DNA of 64,000 nucleotides from Desertivirga xinjiangensis (GTDB lineage Bacteria; Bacteroidota; Bacteroidia; Sphingobacteriales; Sphingobacteriaceae), in assembly GCF_024436435.1 (NCBI RefSeq), contig NZ_JAFMZP010000014.1:1-64000 (forward strand). Reading direction: 5' to 3'. Positions within the stretch are counted from its first letter, which is position 1. The number at the start of each line of letters is the position of its first letter. A model generated the notes under the pieces. It had not been told where the DNA came from, ran no database searches, and was given only the letters and a program-made list of their open reading frames with translations. Shown in pieces: positions 55,085-64,000 of this stretch. A program made the position numbers and the translations under genes.

Positions 55085-56947
55085 TTAATAATCCAGGTAC
55101 TGTTGGTAGACACTTTGCATATACGCTTTACCGTTCTTCAACAGATCTTCTTCCTCTTTAGAGGGCAAGTCCTGAGATCTGTAAATGATTTCTTTACCTA
55201 CATTATCAAATGACAACACCTGCTGACTGCTGTTTACAAACCCGAAACCGTTATCCCAGCTAAAAAAAGCATGGCCCGGAACGGCTGGATTTAAGAGGTC
55301 TTTACTCCAGTGGAAATTGGAATGTGGAATATTTAATTGATTGAAGATTGTAGAGGCTATGTCAGTCTGACTTCCCACCTTGTTTGCCTTCATTCCTCTG
55401 AACTCTGGTTTGATCACTTCACCAAAAAACAATAGAGGAATACGGTATCTGCGGGGGTCATAGATTTCATATTTATTTAAAGGCAAGCGGTGTCCATGGT
55501 CGGCCACAATCACAAAGAGAGTATTTTTATACCAGCTTCGTTTTCTGGCCTTGTCTATAAAACTTCCAAGACACGAATCAGTATAAAAGGCCGTACTTCT
55601 AAATTTGTTTTCTACTTCATCACCCTTAAATCGCGGCTGCACCGGCAATTCAAAAGGCTCGTGGTTTGTAAGGGTGAGGATCACTGAACAAAAAGGGGAC
55701 TTCGAACTAAGTTCCTTGTCCAGTAACCTATCGTACACAACATCATCGTACGCGCCCCATTTCGAGTTCATGTCCTTCTTATCAAAATTCGTTTTGTCCA
55801 CAAGGTCCAGACAGCCATTATTCAAAAGGTATGACTTAATGTTAGCAAACTCACTTTCTCCTCCATAATAAAAGGATGTGTGATAGCCATAGTTCAGCAG
55901 TGTCTCATAAACAGAAGGCAACTGAGCATTTTTAGAGTTTTCTTTGATGATGCTGCGAGTGGCCTGTGTCGGAAAACCGCTTAAAACTGATACGATGCCT
56001 CTATCGGTCCTGTCGCCTGAGGAATAAATATTATTGAAGTATATACCCTTTCTACCCAGTTCATCTATGACCGGAGCTGTGTTCTTTTCGCCACCCAAAC
56101 CCGCCACTAAATCAGCAGTAAAACTCTCTAATATGATAAAGACCAGGTTAGGCTGGTTAGACGACAGGATCTTGATGGTATTCGGCTCTTCTTTGGGATA
56201 TAAGTTGCTAACTGTACGCCTTGCCTCCTCTATTTTAGTATATTCAAACGGGTTCTTATTGTTTGAAATATTTTTGAAAGAGCGCATTAAAGCCCACTCA
56301 GTATTAACCGCCGCGTGATTTAAAACCGGAACAGAAGAATAGTATGCCATACTCTCATTCGCTGGCGCGAGTTGCCAGCCGCCCCGGATGGCTAGAAAGT
56401 TCAAGCCGAGGAGCAGCGGGGTCATCACTACTTTTAGTGCAATGGGGACGTTCTTAACAATGTGAAACTTCATTATCCTTCCGGAAAGGTAAAAGCCTGG
56501 AATAATTAAGATTGCAAGTACAAAAAGAGAAAGAAAAATCGGAGAAGATGCACTGCTCGCTATAGCTTCACCGGGAGTGCTAAATAGAAATTCAAAAGCC
56601 CTGTAATTGACCTTTGTGCCCCATTCGCGGTAAATATTAAAATTTATCACTGTAATAAGGGCACATATTACGATAAGGGCTTTAATGTATATCCGGAAAA
56701 TCCTATTTGATGGTCTTAATCCGGGAATATTCATAATGGCAAGAAAAGCCAGTAATGGCAGAATTGAAGCATAACCTAATGCCGACATATCAATTCTTAT
56801 CCCATGCCAAAAACTTTTGAGGATCTCCGCAAACGATATCCGCTGAAGTTTATTTCTAAAAATCAGCAAAAAGATCACTCTTTCGGCGAAGAAAAAGACC
56901 ATCCAGAAAATAAAATACCTGATGATGGCAAGCAGGTTTTTAAGCAT
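55085..56947 (-). CDS. LtaS/MdoB-like sulfatase-fold membrane protein
   Basis: A 620-residue inner-membrane enzyme of the alkaline-phosphatase superfamily. Five membrane spans in residues about 8-190, then a periplasmic sulfatase-type domain. The metal site shows E274 in LESFTADL, nucleophile T314 in SSGDRTDRG and V-A-D-H-G-H near 480. The family transfers phosphoglycerol or phosphoethanolamine to glycans or lipids (LtaS, MdoB, EptA relatives). Which substrate is used here is not clear, since Bacteroidota make no lipoteichoic acid. A promoter is recognised just upstream. Confidence 0.87.
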   Translation of the reverse strand: MLKNLLAIIRYFIFWMVFFFAERVIFLLIFRNKLQRISFAEILKSFWHGIRIDMSALGYASILPLLAFLAIMNIPGLRPSNRIFRIYIKALIVICALITVINFNIYREWGTKVNYRAFEFLFSTPGEAIASSASSPIFLSLFVLAILIIPGFYLSGRIMKFHIVKNVPIALKVVMTPLLLGLNFLAIRGGWQLAPANESMAYYSSVPVLNHAAVNTEWALMRSFKNISNNKNPFEYTKIEEARRTVSNLYPKEEPNTIKILSSNQPNLVFIILESFTADLVAGLGGEKNTAPVIDELGRKGIYFNNIYSSGDRTDRGIVSVLSGFPTQATRSIIKENSKNAQLPSVYETLLNYGYHTSFYYGGESEFANIKSYLLNNGCLDLVDKTNFDKKDMNSKWGAYDDVVYDRLLDKELSSKSPFCSVILTLTNHEPFELPVQPRFKGDEVENKFRSTAFYTDSCLGSFIDKARKRSWYKNTLFVIVADHGHRLPLNKYEIYDPRRYRIPLLFFGEVIKPEFRGMKANKVGSQTDIASTIFNQLNIPHSNFHWSKDLLNPAVPGHAFFSWDNGFGFVNSSQQVLSFDNVGKEIIYRSQDLPSKEEEDLLKNGKAYMQSVYQQYLDY

Positions 56948-57506: not shown

Positions 57507-58016
57507 CTACAAAAGGATCTGGAGAAAGACTTCCAAACTTAGTCGTTGACTAGCGGTTGGGGGAAGTTTCTTTAAACTTAGACATCGGATTACTCCGACA
57601 TTCCTTTGAGCATGGATCTTCTGAATAAAACGAAGAAGTGAATAATAATCGCCTTCGAAATTGAGCCGCTGGATAAGGTACTTGTCAGATTTTAGATAAG
57701 CGTCTTTAACCGGCAGTTCGGTCAATCTTACATTTTCCGCTTCAGCCAAAGCAGCTATTTCTGCAATTGCTCTCCCTCGAAACACCAAAGAATCGATCTT
57801 GTACTTGTTTATTATCCTGTCGAGATTCGTATTTTTTCTATTTAGATATTCAGGCTGGTAACTCAAATCTCCAAGAGTATCAAGTTTTCCCAACAGCTCC
57901 CTGTTCAGCATAAAGGCTTTCCATGTTTTTTTTAGTGCCAGCTGATAAGCAAGAAACATGAACAGCATTATCACGCCTGGTAGTATTAAAATCTTTGCTT
58001 TTTTTCTGTCAAACAT
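57507..58016 (-). CDS. GspM/PilO-like inner-membrane protein
   Basis: A 169-residue protein with a short cytosolic start (FDRKKAK), one membrane span (about 8-28), a coiled-coil stretch (about 30-80) and a small ferredoxin-like domain at the C-terminus, the architecture of GspM/PilO. Primary sequence similarity is weak; the call rests on architecture and on its place as the last gene of the secretion operon, 4 nt after the GspL/PilN-like gene. Confidence 0.6.
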   Translation of the reverse strand: MFDRKKAKILILPGVIMLFMFLAYQLALKKTWKAFMLNRELLGKLDTLGDLSYQPEYLNRKNTNLDRIINKYKIDSLVFRGRAIAEIAALAEAENVRLTELPVKDAYLKSDKYLIQRLNFEGDYYSLLRFIQKIHAQRNVGVIRCLSLKKLPPTASQRLSLEVFLQILL

Positions 58017-58020
58017 AGTT

Positions 58021-59232
58021 CTAGAAATTGATCAGCAACACGAATTCCCCGGTTTCCGACTCCTGGTTATAAGTGTAGCTCTCTAACTTTACCATTCTTA
58101 CCCAGGGAATCTTTTCCAACTCTGACATCCAGTTGTTCACCGGAACGATTCTTTTTGAGCTTCCCGTAATTTTGATAGTGCGGTCATTAAAAAGCACTTG
58201 CTGTAAATTTCTGCTTCCGGTAAGATCAAGCGGATTTATTGCAAGTTCATTCCAGCTCACTTCATCCGGAAGATTTAAAGCTAGCTGATCAATCAAAACA
58301 GCTTTATTATAATGACCATTCCATCCTAGTTCCTGCAGCTGAGCTTCTTTACTTTTTATCAGGCCAGCGAGGGCAGCATGTTCACGCGTACCGAATACCG
58401 AACGGTTCACACGGTTGCTCAGTTCCCTATTTTCAGCATTGACGCTCCAAAGCACCACCGAATTGATTAGCAGGATCACGAAAAACGCTAACAGCGCTCC
58501 TGCAACCGCAACCTTAGTACGTTTACTCGATATAAGTAATTTAAAATCTTTGTCCAACTGGGGCACATGAGCCTGTACTGTCTCTGCAAAATGGGCAAAG
58601 AGTAGCTGGAAGGCAGAAGAATAAGCCAATAATAACTGCTCCTCTAACACCTCATTTTCTATTTTCAGAGGGAACGGTGCATGCAACGAGCGATCATAAC
58701 GGTATGACTCCCAATCCAGCTCTTCAGTCCTGATTATTAAATGCCCGTCAAATATCAGAGTGTCACCATATACATTTAGCTGAGGAGCGATCATGTGGAC
58801 CGGAAATGGCCCAAGACTTAACATCAGAGGGTTTAAACCAAGGTTGCTGCATAGTGTTAGCCACCGGTCGGCCTCGGTTTTACGGATGACTGAGATAAAA
58901 GATCTGAGTCCCGAACGAAAGTTTTGAATATAGAAGTCATTCATATTTGCCCCCGGAAAACTTTGAGCAAACTGCAATGAGGTGAGAACCGAAGTATTTT
59001 CTATTTGCTTATGCAGCACCCCCTTTCCATTCAGGTTCAGAGCAATGTTTGCCTCTTTGGAAAAATAGTCACTGAGATCGTTCAAAGATTTTAAGCCGGA
59101 AACCTTCTTCACAAAGTCCAGCCGGTTCCTATGCCTTTGAATTTTACATGCTGACAGATCAATAGAGTTATCCATATTTATATGCAGGCTTAACCCAAGC
59201 CCAGAATACACCTGTAGAAATCGTTCAAACAT
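58021..59232 (-). CDS. GspL/PilN-like inner-membrane protein
   Basis: A 403-residue bitopic protein. Residues 1-235 form a cytosolic domain that could be a degenerate actin-like (GspL/PilM) fold; I see no intact nucleotide-binding motif. A membrane span lies at about 243-265 (AVAGALLAFFVILLINSVVLW). A periplasmic coiled coil (265-320) and a PilN-like ferredoxin fold with VSWNELAINPLDL and RIVPVNNWMSELEKIPWV follow. One chain thus holds what PilM and PilN do separately, as in GspL. 14 nt after the secretin gene. Confidence 0.7.
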   Translation of the reverse strand: MFERFLQVYSGLGLSLHINMDNSIDLSACKIQRHRNRLDFVKKVSGLKSLNDLSDYFSKEANIALNLNGKGVLHKQIENTSVLTSLQFAQSFPGANMNDFYIQNFRSGLRSFISVIRKTEADRWLTLCSNLGLNPLMLSLGPFPVHMIAPQLNVYGDTLIFDGHLIIRTEELDWESYRYDRSLHAPFPLKIENEVLEEQLLLAYSSAFQLLFAHFAETVQAHVPQLDKDFKLLISSKRTKVAVAGALLAFFVILLINSVVLWSVNAENRELSNRVNRSVFGTREHAALAGLIKSKEAQLQELGWNGHYNKAVLIDQLALNLPDEVSWNELAINPLDLTGSRNLQQVLFNDRTIKITGSSKRIVPVNNWMSELEKIPWVRMVKLESYTYNQESETGEFVLLINF

Positions 59233-59246
59233 ATGCTAACGGACCC

Positions 59247-61160
59247 TTAATAGATGATCGTTGGTTTAATAAATACAATGGTTACCACCTTCGAGCTGGA
59301 CTTAGTTTTGCTGCTGAAAATCCACTTCAGAACCGGAATACGGGATAATAATGGTACCCCTGACCCTCCGTCACTCTTCTCAGCCCGTTCAAGCCCACCC
59401 AACACGATCATATCCTCATTTCTGGCCCTGATAATAGATTCAAACTTGCTGTTAGAAGTTGGTGGAGGAGCATTATTAGGTGGAACTCCAATGAAGTCAG
59501 AGATATCCACCTTTATATTTAGTGTTACCTGATCGTCGCCAGAAACGATAGGCTTAATATTGATCGCCAAATTTGCTTCCACAGGCACATATTCGTCAGT
59601 AAAAATGTTTTGAGTACTGCCAAAAGAAGGAAACACATTTTGCTTTCTAATAAGGTAGTAGCGTTTAGAGCCGATACTTAAAGTTGCAGAATGGCCATTT
59701 AATGTAGACAGCTTGGGTACAGAGCGGACTTCAACATTATCATTTTCTTCCAGAGCGCTCAGTCCCACGTAAAAATTCGGAGTTACTCTCCCCAGATTCA
59801 CTGCGCTTAAGTTTCCAAGCCGGGATAGGAAATCGTTAATAGCTCTTGCCCCCAACGTGTAATCTATACCCGGCAGAACGGTCCCGCCAGTTTTTATACT
59901 GTCTGAGATTCCCGCTTTAATCCCTGTTTTCACGCTCCGGTTCTTACGGATGTCGATCAGATTTACTTCAATTAATACCAAAGGGACAAGCTGATCCAGT
60001 TGTTTAACAAAGGACGTGATCTCTTCAATCTGAGGTCTGGAGCCCGATAACAAAATGGTATTTTGCTCCCTAAATTCCCGTATCTCCACTCCTTTTCTCC
60101 ATTCGTTCGGAATCATTGCCTGGATAGTGTCTACAGAACGGTTCTGCAACTGCAGAACGCGGTTAGTTCTTAGTCCCTCAAGGTTTCGGTCACCAATGAG
60201 ATAAACATCATTTTCTATTTTATAAGTATAGTTTGTACCTTTTAAAAGTGATGTTAAAAATTGTTCATAGGTGATATCGTTAACAGTCGTAGAAATACTG
60301 TCTCTTATATCTGAGTAAAGAAAGAAATTTTTGCTAGCCTCCTGTGATGCAAGTCGTATCAGGTCGACTATTAATGCACCGCTGGCATCTATAGAAAGCA
60401 ATCTCTGCCCTTTATTATCCACTCGGCTCACAATACTCACCAACGACTCCGATCCGCTCAAAGGTTTAAACATTTTCCTTACAGCTGGCTTCTTATCAGG
60501 ATTAATAAAAACTTCTTCATTTTCCTTAAGAGCCTGAAAAATGTACACATCATCACTCGTTTTTAACAAATTGATTTCGTTTGCAAAAGCAAGCTTTTCC
60601 AACGCGGTTTCCAGAGGTGCTTCTTCAAAGAATCCACTTACTTTTTTATTAAAAAGAGAAGACGTAACCACAATGCTCTTACCTGTGATTTGAGATATCC
60701 GCCTTGCTACATCGGGAAGCGAATCATTACTTAGTTCCAGGCTCAGTAAGTTGGAATAACTATTGTAATTTGCCTTTATCTGCGGATTGAAGCTGTTTGT
60801 TCGTTGAACCTGAGTGATGGTTATGATAGAACCTGTCAGGCTTATACCCAAGTAATATTCTTTTGCCAGGAAAGTGAGAATGTTCAGAGGAGTCTCATTA
60901 TTAAAATTAGTATATACCTTAAAATTCAGTTTCGGATCGATGTTAAGGTTCAATTTGTTGGACTGCGCAAGAGCTCTCAAAAACTCTTTAACAGGAACCC
61001 CCGCTACTGATAACTGCACCTTCTGTTTTAATCCCGGGACAGTAGCCGATAGTTCATCCAGCTGTTTACGAATAAGTTCTACCCGGTCTTCCTGTGCTCT
61101 TACCGGGCAAAAAAGCGTAATCATTTGTATTAAAATAGTACATGTAAACAGTTTAATCAT
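59247..61160 (-). CDS. gspD: Secretin (GspD/PilQ family)
   Basis: The outer-membrane channel, 637 residues from ATG 61160. An upstream in-frame ATG at 61250 overlaps gspE by 80 nt and places 30 residues before a normal signal peptide (about 1-22, ending F-C-P-V-R-A). STN-type domain (about 40-110), two further N-type domains (about 120-310), N1/secretin-N (about 330-400, SVDTIQAMIPNEWRKG), then the secretin core with V-R-S-V-P-K-L-S-T-L-N-G and the C-terminal signature VPLLSRIPVLKWIFSSK. No pilotin or S-domain is evident. 10 nt after the ATPase gene. Confidence 0.88.
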   Translation of the reverse strand: MIKLFTCTILIQMITLFCPVRAQEDRVELIRKQLDELSATVPGLKQKVQLSVAGVPVKEFLRALAQSNKLNLNIDPKLNFKVYTNFNNETPLNILTFLAKEYYLGISLTGSIITITQVQRTNSFNPQIKANYNSYSNLLSLELSNDSLPDVARRISQITGKSIVVTSSLFNKKVSGFFEEAPLETALEKLAFANEINLLKTSDDVYIFQALKENEEVFINPDKKPAVRKMFKPLSGSESLVSIVSRVDNKGQRLLSIDASGALIVDLIRLASQEASKNFFLYSDIRDSISTTVNDITYEQFLTSLLKGTNYTYKIENDVYLIGDRNLEGLRTNRVLQLQNRSVDTIQAMIPNEWRKGVEIREFREQNTILLSGSRPQIEEITSFVKQLDQLVPLVLIEVNLIDIRKNRSVKTGIKAGISDSIKTGGTVLPGIDYTLGARAINDFLSRLGNLSAVNLGRVTPNFYVGLSALEENDNVEVRSVPKLSTLNGHSATLSIGSKRYYLIRKQNVFPSFGSTQNIFTDEYVPVEANLAINIKPIVSGDDQVTLNIKVDISDFIGVPPNNAPPPTSNSKFESIIRARNEDMIVLGGLERAEKSDGGSGVPLLSRIPVLKWIFSSKTKSSSKVVTIVFIKPTIIY

Positions 61161-61170
61161 CAGCTCTCTC

Positions 61171-62598
61171 TCAATAATTGAATAACAAAGGATAGATCTC
61201 TTCCAGTGAGGTCTCGCCCTGTTCAAACAGGAAAAATGCATTTTCAGCAAGCGTTTTAATTCCCCTTCTCCCGAGCGATTCTTTAACGTACATATTCTCG
61301 TTTTTTATTTCCATTGCCAGATCTTCGTCTACCGGTATTACCTCATACACGGCTTTTCGTCCATAATACCCTGTATAGTAACATTTTTCACATCCCCTGG
61401 GCATATAATGGGTTTCAACGACGTGAAACGGTATGAAGTGACGAGGATACAGGTCCTGGTCAAGTAAATGAGGTGTTTTGCAGTGGGGGCATAATAAACG
61501 TATTAAACGCTGCGCGGCTGTGGTATTCAGGGTATTGGCAACCAGGAAAGCTGGAATACCCATATCGATTAAACGCGATACAGTTCCCCAGGCAGAGTTC
61601 GTATGAATAGTGGAAAGTACCAGATGGCCTGTCAGAGCCGCTCTTATCGCCATATTCGCAGTTTCGGTGTCCCGAATTTCACCCACCATAATTACGTCGG
61701 GATCCTGACGTAAAAATGTCCTTAAGGCGGCAGCAAAAGTAAGCCCGATCGATTCTTTCAACTGAACCTGGTTAACCCCCTCGAGGGTGTACTCAACCGG
61801 ATCCTCAATGGTTAAGATATTGCGTGTCTCTTTATTAAGCAGCTTTAATGTCGCATATAAAGTTGTTGTCTTCCCAGAGCCGGTAGGACCACTTAACAGG
61901 ATAATTCCATTCGGTCGTCTGATCCCCTGCATAAAGTTCTCAAGATCAAAGTCTGAAAATCCCAGACTATTCAAGTCGATTTCGGTAGCATCATTACTTA
62001 GCAGGCGAAGAACAACCTTTTCACCATGAAGAGTTGGTAAAACCGATACCCGGATATCGAACTGTTTATCATGGAAATTAAAATTTATTCTACCGTCCTG
62101 GGGTAAACGTTTCTCCGAAATATCGAGGTTGGAAAGGATCTTTATCTTATTAATAAGCGCGGGGTAATTCTCCTTGTCAAGAAGGTATCGTTCTACCATT
62201 AAACCATCGATCCGGATACGAACACGACATTTTCTTTCATATGTCTCTATGTGTATATCACTGCTTTTTAAACCTTTAGCCTCGCCTATTAAACTGAGCA
62301 GGAAATCATCCGCATCGTACTGAGAATATAATTGAGTACCTCCGGATGCTGCGTTGTCTTTGATGTAGTATTTGGATAGAAGACGATTTGTTTCGACAAC
62401 CGGAAGAGGTTCCAGTTCGATATTATATCCCAGCAATACCTCCAGCTCAGACTGCAGGTTAGCCAGATTGGCAGAGTCTTCGCAATAGAGATACAACGTT
62501 TCACCTGTTCTCGCTTTTGGCAATATCCTGTAATGCCAGGCCTGGTCTTTCGTTAAAAGATGAATATTTTCGGTTACCAATATGATATCCTCAGTCAT
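61171..62598 (-). CDS. gspE: Type II secretion/pilus assembly ATPase (GspE/PilB)
   Basis: The assembly ATPase of a type II secretion or type IV pilus machine; 475 residues from ATG 62598, or 477 from ATG 62604. Counting from 62604: N1E-like domain (1-95), Walker A GPTGSGKT (239-246), Asp box region IEDPVEY (266-272), Walker B-type VGEIRD (307-312), His box LSTIHTNSAWG (330-340) and a zinc site C372/C375 with C405/C408. ATG 62598 overlaps the peptidase stop as ATGA. No GspE-specific XcpR-type N1 domain, so a PilB-like origin is also possible. Confidence 0.93.
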   Translation of the reverse strand: MTEDIILVTENIHLLTKDQAWHYRILPKARTGETLYLYCEDSANLANLQSELEVLLGYNIELEPLPVVETNRLLSKYYIKDNAASGGTQLYSQYDADDFLLSLIGEAKGLKSSDIHIETYERKCRVRIRIDGLMVERYLLDKENYPALINKIKILSNLDISEKRLPQDGRINFNFHDKQFDIRVSVLPTLHGEKVVLRLLSNDATEIDLNSLGFSDFDLENFMQGIRRPNGIILLSGPTGSGKTTTLYATLKLLNKETRNILTIEDPVEYTLEGVNQVQLKESIGLTFAAALRTFLRQDPDVIMVGEIRDTETANMAIRAALTGHLVLSTIHTNSAWGTVSRLIDMGIPAFLVANTLNTTAAQRLIRLLCPHCKTPHLLDQDLYPRHFIPFHVVETHYMPRGCEKCYYTGYYGRKAVYEVIPVDEDLAMEIKNENMYVKESLGRRGIKTLAENAFFLFEQGETSLEEIYPLLFNY

Positions 62599-63125
62599 AT
62601 CCATATTGCTAAGTGTTCCAACAGCCAGCTATCTCTTGTAAAGTCAATATTCTGATTGTGCCAATCCGTTATAAATACTCCGCAGAATAAAAACGCCTGC
62701 AGGCCTGCCAAGGGAATTTGCGAGCTCCGGGCATTCGTTAATAAGGACCAGCTTAACCAGATAAGTAATACTATGATCAGACTTGTGAGATAGAATAAAA
62801 CGAAGTTTAATGTAGAGAAATAAAAAGCAATACTTATCAGGAACAGGATATCACCCCATCCTATCAAGTCCTCAGTAAGCTCCATTCTCACGGCCCATTT
62901 GATTGAAAAATACAATTTCAGTAACAGGAACTGACTCATCAAAAAACATATATTTGCACCAGCTGTCTGGGCAAGCTCAGCCAAAACCTGGTTTTTAAGC
63001 ACATGATTTACTATAAAGAAGACTATCAGCAGTGGAAACCAAAAGGCATACACCAGGCGGCTCCTAATATCCTGCAAAGTAATGGCCAGCAGTATCGCGG
63101 GAATACAAATCGCAATAAACCACAT
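62595..63125 (-). CDS. Prepilin peptidase (A24 family, peptidase domain only)
   Basis: A 176-residue membrane protein with six predicted spans. The two catalytic aspartates of A24 peptidases are D19 in LQDIRSR and D92 in the G-W-G-D motif (89-92), a GxGD form. The N-terminal methyltransferase domain of full-length PilD/GspO is missing, so it cuts the leader, but may not methylate. Between the pseudopilin and ATPase genes; it ends overlapping gspE by 4-10 nt. The upstream gap (84 nt) has a palindrome. Confidence 0.82.
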   Translation of the reverse strand: MWFIAICIPAILLAITLQDIRSRLVYAFWFPLLIVFFIVNHVLKNQVLAELAQTAGANICFLMSQFLLLKLYFSIKWAVRMELTEDLIGWGDILFLISIAFYFSTLNFVLFYLTSLIIVLLIWLSWSLLTNARSSQIPLAGLQAFLFCGVFITDWHNQNIDFTRDSWLLEHLAIWI

Positions 63126-63142
63126 TGTTTTTATTTATAAAT

Positions 63143-63201
63143 TATAGGTTCTAAGTTGTATGTCTAGCCAGAAGCTTAAACTTATAACTTACAACCCTAT
63201 T
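63143..63201 (-). repeat. Imperfect palindrome between the pseudopilin and peptidase genes
   Basis: ATAGGTTCTAAGTTGTAT (from about 63143) is nearly the reverse complement of ATAACTTACAACCCTAT (to about 63201), with a loop of about 25 nt. It shares the AAGTTG core with the palindromes in the rpoB-rpoC gap and after dapD. Confidence 0.4.
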
Positions 63202-63209
63202 ATGACCAA

Positions 63210-63641
63210 TTAATCAGGCGTAACTTCTTTCAGGTTTTTATCCTGGTCAATTTCCCAAACATTAAAAGTTCCATTTCCATTAAAATCAACAACCGCCGTT
63301 GCCCTGGCTAAAAAACCTGTATTTGACGCCTGTACAACCTCAATCCTGTAATTCGCTTTTCCATCCTCACCCTCAGTACTTAACTTCTCCTGCAGAAAGC
63401 CTATCTCGTTGAGATCTGTACTATATTTAGATTTCTCATAGAAGAAATTTTTCTCCTGGGTGTGTAAATGCTCTAACTGGACTTTTGCTTCAGTAGATTT
63501 CGCTTTAGTAATTAAAGGAAGAAGATTAGGCAAAGCCAGCAGCACTAATATTCCGATGATCACCAAAACCACTAAAATCTCTGTCAGAGTATAGCCGGAA
63601 AGCTTCCGCTTTAGATAGATTGGACTGTTTTTCATTTTCAT
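63210..63641 (-). CDS. Type II secretion major pseudopilin, GspG-like
   Basis: A 143-residue prepilin. The leader of 16 residues ends K-R-K-L-S-G; cleavage after G16 gives Y-T-L-T-E with Glu at +5, the classic prepilin signature, followed by the hydrophobic helix ILVVLVIIGILVLLALPNLLP. The C-terminal domain ends with VVDFNGNGTFNVWEIDQDK, close to the calcium-binding loop of GspG pseudopilins. Other genes of the operon are transcribed just after it. A second in-frame ATG lies two codons on. Confidence 0.9.
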   Translation of the reverse strand: MKMKNSPIYLKRKLSGYTLTEILVVLVIIGILVLLALPNLLPLITKAKSTEAKVQLEHLHTQEKNFFYEKSKYSTDLNEIGFLQEKLSTEGEDGKANYRIEVVQASNTGFLARATAVVDFNGNGTFNVWEIDQDKNLKEVTPD

Positions 63642-63759
63642 AGTGATAGGTTATTAAGATAATAGCTTCGATCAAACTATTGTTTGGGGCAGAAAAATGT
63701 GAAAACTGTAACATTTTGTGCAAATCTTCCTTCTGCAATTCACACATGTTGGTCGGCGT

Positions 63760-64000
63760 TCAAAAGCTATTGCTCATCTGAAAGAGGGGCAGATACATGG
63801 CAATTAAAATGACGCCTACTACCAGTCCCAAAAAAATGATGATTAAAGGTTCTATCAAACTACTAAGTGTTGTTGTTTTGTATTCAACTTCTTCAATGTA
63901 TTGATCAGAGATCTTACTAAAGAAATAATCAAGTTTATTCGTTTCTTCGCCTACTTTTAGCAACATGACCATTTTTGGAGGATAAATTTTGAACTGTTGC
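63760..64000 (-). CDS. gspF: Type II secretion inner-membrane platform protein GspF/PilC (partial)
   Basis: Only the last ~80 residues are in the window; the frame stays open to the right edge at 64000, so the gene continues beyond. The visible part reads Q-Q-F-K-I-Y-P-P-K-M-V-M-L-L-K-V-G-E-E-T-N-K-L-D, then a helix and the membrane span EPLIIIFLGLVVGVILIAMYLPLFQMSN, the C-terminal end of the GspF family. It is upstream of the pseudopilin gene by 118 nt. Confidence 0.9.
   Translation of the reverse strand, partial: QQFKIYPPKMVMLLKVGEETNKLDYFFSKISDQYIEEVEYKTTTLSSLIEPLIIIFLGLVVGVILIAMYLPLFQMSNSF

Follow-up and report, generated by a model that had tools for sequence, protein, structure and literature searches.

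A probable type II secretion-like machine of Desertivirga xinjiangensis in a Bacteroidota lineage separate from the T2SS

The window analyzed here covers bases 1-64000 of an 83708-base contig in the Desertivirga xinjiangensis genome (5.5 Mb, 99.98% complete). Seven minus-strand genes at 57507-64000 belong to a gene run that probably encodes a type IV filament machine that is complete, lacks retraction and works like a type II secretion system (T2SS), the Bacteroidota system known from Cytophaga hutchinsonii, in a lineage separate from the T2SS. We favor a T2SS-like exporter because the full core lies in one tight run within a conserved two-block module, with a GspL-type fusion and a GspC/PilP HR fold, and because a single ATPase occurs without PilT, the trees are separate and, as indirect evidence, D, F and G mutants of C. 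hutchinsonii lose cellulose-bound outer-membrane proteins and adhere less (PMC5553014). Against this, the same genes would also be needed by a short rigid pilus. The locus is a complete and unremarkable representative of a Bacteroidota machine that is known but has been little studied, and that most likely functions as a T2SS does while lying outside the T2SS clade.

Gene run across the window edge

The earlier note had listed seven consecutive minus-strand genes (a partial GspF, GspG, an A24 peptidase, GspE, a secretin, a GspL-like and a GspM/PilO-like protein), and all of them were confirmed as open reading frames at that place and on that strand, tightly packed as described, with intergenic spacing of -14 to 118 bases. 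The same strand continues past 64000, in contig numbering that extends that of the window, with the rest of GspF and six further genes:

57507..58016, minus strand: GspM/PilO-like inner-membrane clamp protein, 169 aa (family profile against PDB; Pfam PilO in family members)
58021..59232, minus strand: GspL-like protein, 403 aa (Pfam PilN in family; AlphaFold model; PDB folds)
59247..61163, minus strand: secretin, 638 aa (Pfam Secretin and STN)
61171..62604, minus strand: GspE/PilB-family assembly ATPase, 477 aa, with a weak MshEN-like N-terminus (T2SSE)
62595..63125, minus strand: short A24 prepilin peptidase, 176 aa (Peptidase_A24; motifs)
63210..63641, minus strand: GspG-like major pseudopilin, 143 aa (N_methyl)
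63760-64902 (window part 63760..64000), minus strand: GspF inner-membrane platform, 380 aa (T2SSF)
64889-65503, minus strand: J-like minor pilin (contig, beyond the window)
65439-65807, minus strand: I-like minor pilin (contig, beyond the window)
65789-67090, minus strand: K, prepilin-like protein with a bactofilin-like domain (contig, beyond the window)
67087-67674, minus strand: MORN-repeat protein (contig, beyond the window)
67671-68165, minus strand: GspC/PilP-like protein (contig, beyond the window)
68167-69123, minus strand: Fn3-like lipoprotein (contig, beyond the window)

More genes had been anticipated beyond 64000, and they were found on the same contig from the GspF remainder through the lipoprotein. 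GspC and minor pseudopilins, which had been recorded as absent, both lie just upstream; since these parts sit just past 64000, the system is not reduced, and a minimal machine lacking them was an effect of the window edge. Just two gaps in the operon are of appreciable size, 63642-63759 (118 bases) and 63126-63209 (84 bases). They lie on either side of the gene for the major pseudopilin, for which a separate promoter or RNA processing is possible.

The run extends past the lipoprotein, with overlaps or gaps of at most 3 bases, into genes for an SCO1-domain protein, a HEAT protein and, at its head, a tyrosinase with a long N-terminal region (contig C5 69126-73629; L003:6126-10629). This linkage to the secretion operon was found only in this genome among the compared loci. 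We rejected the tyrosinase as a conserved substrate: relatives occurred in 2 of 60 related genomes, this one counted, and none adjoined the machine in other loci. Further upstream, also on the minus strand, L003:11553-19997 carries genes apparently for L-rhamnose/fucose use, as judged from open reading frames (a kinase, a sugar isomerase, an aldolase-dehydrogenase fusion, lactate-use iron-sulphur proteins and a transporter fragment). On the other side, 559 bases downstream of the operon, 55085-56947 (minus strand) encodes a sulfatase-family membrane protein (Pfam Sulfatase, 3.7e-37) with an LTA-synthase-like layout, a relative of which also adjoins the system in locus L085.

Core machine proteins

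Profile support was far beyond chance for GspE (T2SSE, 6e-127), the secretin (Secretin, 2.6e-33; STN, 9.6e-11), GspF (T2SSF, 1.4e-13 on the window fragment and 9.1e-45 on the full gene) and the pseudopilin (N_methyl, 3.5e-06), and weaker for the peptidase (Peptidase_A24, 7.3e-05) and the GspL-like protein. GspE scored 473.8 bits against TIGR02533 (T2SS GspE; cut-off 630.25) and 469.7 bits against TIGR02538 (PilB; cut-off 675.65). The secretin, for which the ATG at 61163 (638 aa) is a preferable start to the TTG at 61250, matched the MshL, GspD, PilQ and SctC models near-equally (119, 116, 108 and 103 bits, respectively), each score being far below its cut-off. The peptidase carries the catalytic-type motifs QDIRSR and GWGD and is without the N-terminal methylase part. 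The pseudopilin has a cleavage site G/YTLTE and a C-terminal acidic loop, DFNGNGTFNVWE, whose pattern D-[FL]-[DN]-x-[DN]-G was also found in aligned relatives. GspG binds calcium, and by analogy this loop may be a calcium site. A PHROGs search returned nothing beyond pilin N-termini.

Clamp proteins

The inner-membrane clamp proteins had been described as strongly diverged, and the profiles bore this out. The GspL-like protein matched the PilN profile exactly on the cut-off (9.8e-05), with 19 of 24 family members matching Pfam PilN. Its family profile had no relevant match in PDB, and its identity came instead from a fold search with the AlphaFold model (pLDDT 89), in which a cytoplasmic actin-like domain is followed by a single long helix across the membrane and a periplasmic ferredoxin-like domain. 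The best PDB matches were cytoplasmic domains of GspL (1.6e-07), followed by PilM, and the periplasmic part matched EpsL (TMt 0.69) and PilN. Since the cytoplasmic part has the GspL/PilM fold and the periplasmic part the EpsL/PilN fold, we regard this protein as a PilM-PilN fusion like GspL.

The 169-aa GspM/PilO-like protein had no profile match of its own and was recognizable only via its family, in which 7 of 24 members matched Pfam PilO (best, 3.8e-09) and whose profile matched the solved PilO of Myxococcus xanthus in PDB (5e-06). Proteins of the GspC-like family combine one membrane helix with a DPF motif and a domain of beta type. Its top twelve PDB fold matches were all GspC, PilP or GspB, with PilP nearly as close as GspC. 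As the E-values of these matches were 5e-03 or weaker, the assignment depends on their consistency and high Foldseek probability (0.94-1.00) and not on any single match. Together with T2SSC matches in 4 of 21 family members, the fold points to a GspC-like protein with an HR-type domain.

Minor pilins, K, lipoprotein and MORN protein

In the slot of GspK the run carries K, a protein outside the known GspK family, with a prepilin-like start without Glu5 and, in 16 of 23 family members, a bactofilin-like domain. At E < 1e-5, K matched 22 Bacteroidia loci, 7 loci from elsewhere in the phylum and one Zixibacteria locus, with zero matches in T2SS, T4aP or remaining loci, and Escherichia coli GspK gave the opposite pattern; absences in the anchor loci are soft because the simple ORF caller drops some genes in G+C-rich DNA. 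This distribution makes K a likely signature of the lineage. No GspH was found for the system.

The bactofilin-like ectodomain in place of the GspK domain is one of the points in favor of an adhesive surface pilus, short and non-retractile, in which K would sit at the tip, the filament would hold the cell to its substrate and protein effects would be secondary. We consider such a pilus unlikely, given the T2SS-like GspL-type fusion and GspC-type HR domain; further evidence on both sides comes from C. hutchinsonii (see below).

For the lipoprotein, the family profile matched only generic Fn3/Ig folds in PDB. Most members share C-x-[DE]-hydrophobic-hydrophobic-E after the lipobox, which partly resembles SDDFE, the surface-export consensus of Flavobacterium johnsoniae (PMC5080379); as a guess from this likeness, the lipoprotein could be surface-exposed.

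Distribution and the single ATPase

Across Bacteroidia the module recurs as two blocks, G-O-E-D-L-M and LIPO-C-MORN-K-I-J-F, which are joined, separate or inverted, in counts that include many loci incomplete at their ends. Its presence is patchy: a full-length assembly ATPase was found in 51 of 296 Bacteroidia genomes, this one counted, and in one sample the system was detected in 4 of 34 genomes of the same family and in neither of two genus mates. Among its named hosts are Mucilaginibacter, Pedobacter, Sphingobacterium, Tenacibaculum and Kordia.

Consistent with the earlier note, which saw no retraction ATPase, this 99.98% complete genome had one T2SSE ATPase among all 35 scored candidates and no PilT-like ATPase, and none was seen in the 296 Bacteroidia genomes, for each of which the best six candidates were scored. 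Beyond a partial ATPase in one genome (G505) and two full-length ATPases in another (G663), the sample gave no additional match above ~27 bits, where PilT is expected to score far higher. The two in G663 are at G663:C32:19044-20147 and G663:C19:27062-28186, and this genome possibly holds two copies of the system.

A retraction ATPase is used by most of the diderm DNA-uptake pili that have been studied, and its absence is one reason why a competence pseudopilus appears highly improbable to us. A secretin, a pseudopilus and a peptidase would be enough for DNA uptake, and the minor pilins have weak ComGE/ComGF-like matches; on the other hand, competence genes were not noticed among the open reading frames of the operon locus (L003) or its conserved neighbors, and mutants of the C. 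hutchinsonii system show cellulose phenotypes (PMC5553014).

Phylogeny of GspE, secretin and GspF

The trees comprised a GspE tree of 68 rows, a quick secretin tree and a GspF tree, with anchors chosen because their scores exceeded or approached the curated cut-offs for GspE or PilB, plus the Gsp and Hof proteins of E. coli K-12. In the GspE tree, Bacteroidia formed a single clade (100/99), which joined 13 phylum loci and one Zixibacteria locus in a larger clade (98/89); T2SS anchors had their own clade (98/87) and PilB anchors a third (88/88). The secretin tree recovered the same set on a long stem (100 SH-aLRT). In the GspF tree, Bacteroidia grouped with four phylum loci (91/87) on the T4aP side of a weak split, and the Zixibacteria row was placed elsewhere. 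GspE and the secretin (strongly) and GspF (more weakly) fall outside the T2SS clade. As the trees are unrooted for this question, they support separateness, not the nearest neighbor or the deep order of T2SS, PilB and this clade. In these trees, GspE and secretin, and more weakly GspF, group the Bacteroidia systems with other Bacteroidota apart from the T2SS, GspE and secretin adding the one Zixibacteria locus.

Two phylum loci initially classed as T2-like (L184 and L191) fell outside the clade in the GspE tree. An uncultured Cytophagales locus (L082) was placed inside it, in a set without CHU sequences. Non-Bacteroidia Bacteroidota had, besides the T2SS-like lineage, a second and long-branched PilB-like one (L178, L179 and L180).

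Separate clades for these proteins also argue against a canonical T2SS that has only evolved fast in Bacteroidota. Its core parts and architecture are alike, but GspE and GspF score far under the T2SS equivalog cut-offs, K replaces GspK, and an earlier phylogeny likewise separated the Cytophaga system (Denise 2019; PMC6668835), so that we give this explanation little credence. The earlier note had named, as an outcome that would count against an undescribed system, placement of every protein in a known T4aP or Com clade with the missing genes next door: the outcome was mixed, with the genes indeed adjacent but the proteins joining none of the known T2SS, T4aP or Com groups.

Relation to the Cytophaga system

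Contrary to the suggestion of the earlier note, the system is not undescribed, although the note's reading of a diverged operon of the T2SS/T4P family holds. Wang (2017) reported a 'putative T2SS' cluster in C. hutchinsonii (CHU_3191-3202) and listed homologues in F. johnsoniae, P. heparinus, O. splanchnicus and F. psychrophilum (PMC5553014), and the present locus contains the same kind of cluster, with D, E, F, G, an A24 peptidase, minor pilins and PilN/O/P-like clamp genes. A search for subsequent publications on the Cytophaga locus tags returned only the 2017 paper and its corrigendum. Judged by gene order, Wang's T2S-C (CHU_3194), L (CHU_3193) and M (CHU_3191) would fit L, M and C, and CHU_3192/Fjoh_0621/Phep_1106, skipped in Wang's Table 2, would fit the lipoprotein (PMC5553014).

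D, F and G mutants of C. hutchinsonii were impaired in cellulose use and adhesion and had fewer cellulose-bound outer-membrane proteins, with normal motility; their extracellular protein profile was almost unaltered and the affected proteins were porins, which are unlikely to be direct substrates (PMC5553014). Reduced adhesion to cellulose with bulk secretion barely altered speaks for an adhesive surface pilus; against it, electron microscopy revealed no visible change in the morphology of the D mutant (PMC5553014). Such a pilus is also favored by the finding that the so-called T2SS of Cytophaga always clusters with T4aP, branching apart from the T2SS; the system was proposed as a possible new secretion system that evolved from T4aP separately from the T2SS (Denise 2019; PMC6668835).

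Proposed mechanism and significance

For the T2SS-like exporter that we prefer, motifs suggest that the short A24 peptidase would process the pseudopilins. By homology, J, I and K would prime a short GspG pseudopilus, which would be driven up by the lone ATPase, bound to the GspL-like protein and working via GspF. The GspM-like and GspC-like proteins, whose folds were found here, would connect the inner-membrane platform with the secretin, through which folded periplasmic proteins would be expelled. The Fn3-like lipoprotein is probably in the outer membrane at the exit, where it may act as a secretin partner or surface receptor. A broader proposal, to which we give slightly less than even chances, treats these systems as a secretion-system family in its own right, found in Bacteroidota and neighboring phyla and distinct from the T2SS. 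The family would have a tip protein (K) and an outer-membrane lipoprotein of its own and, in Bacteroidia, would export surface proteins beside the T9SS.

New here are the trees of GspE, secretin and GspF, the T2SS-like anatomy (fusion, HR domain and no PilT) and recurrent components unnamed in 2017 (lipoprotein and MORN protein). Bacteroidota are known for the T9SS, and it is little appreciated that the ATPase of a second, pseudopilus-type exporter occurs in about one-sixth of the sampled Bacteroidia species. Whether the system is an independent protein secretion system was left undecided in 2019 (PMC6668835); the full parts list, a lineage beyond Cytophaga and the overlooked lipoprotein, K and MORN genes provide concrete genes for follow-up. 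If a separate origin is true, the GspL-type fusion and missing retraction would represent convergence towards secretion.

Comparison with known systems

The closest counterparts are the systems of Wang (2017), which like this one have D, E, O, G, F, minor pilins and three clamp genes in the same block order, unlike the proteobacterial operon; here, the GspC, L and M candidates were assigned by fold and family profile. With the proteobacterial T2SS (Gsp/Pul/Eps), the system shares D, E, F, G, I/J-like pilins, the L fusion, M, C with an HR domain, O and the lack of PilT. It differs in its separate tree clades, the bactofilin-like K ectodomain, the lack of a detected GspH, a peptidase without the methylase part and the additional lipoprotein and MORN genes. 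With the type IVa pilus, it shares E and F homology, the DPF motif and PilP-like fold of C and a PilO-like M, whereas it has no PilT, a fused rather than separate PilM-PilN, other minor pilins and an ATPase outside the PilB clade. Compared with the account of Denise (2019), in which Cytophaga was the representative (PMC6668835), the lineage described here extends over several families of Bacteroidia, Bacteroidota outside that class and one Zixibacteria locus.
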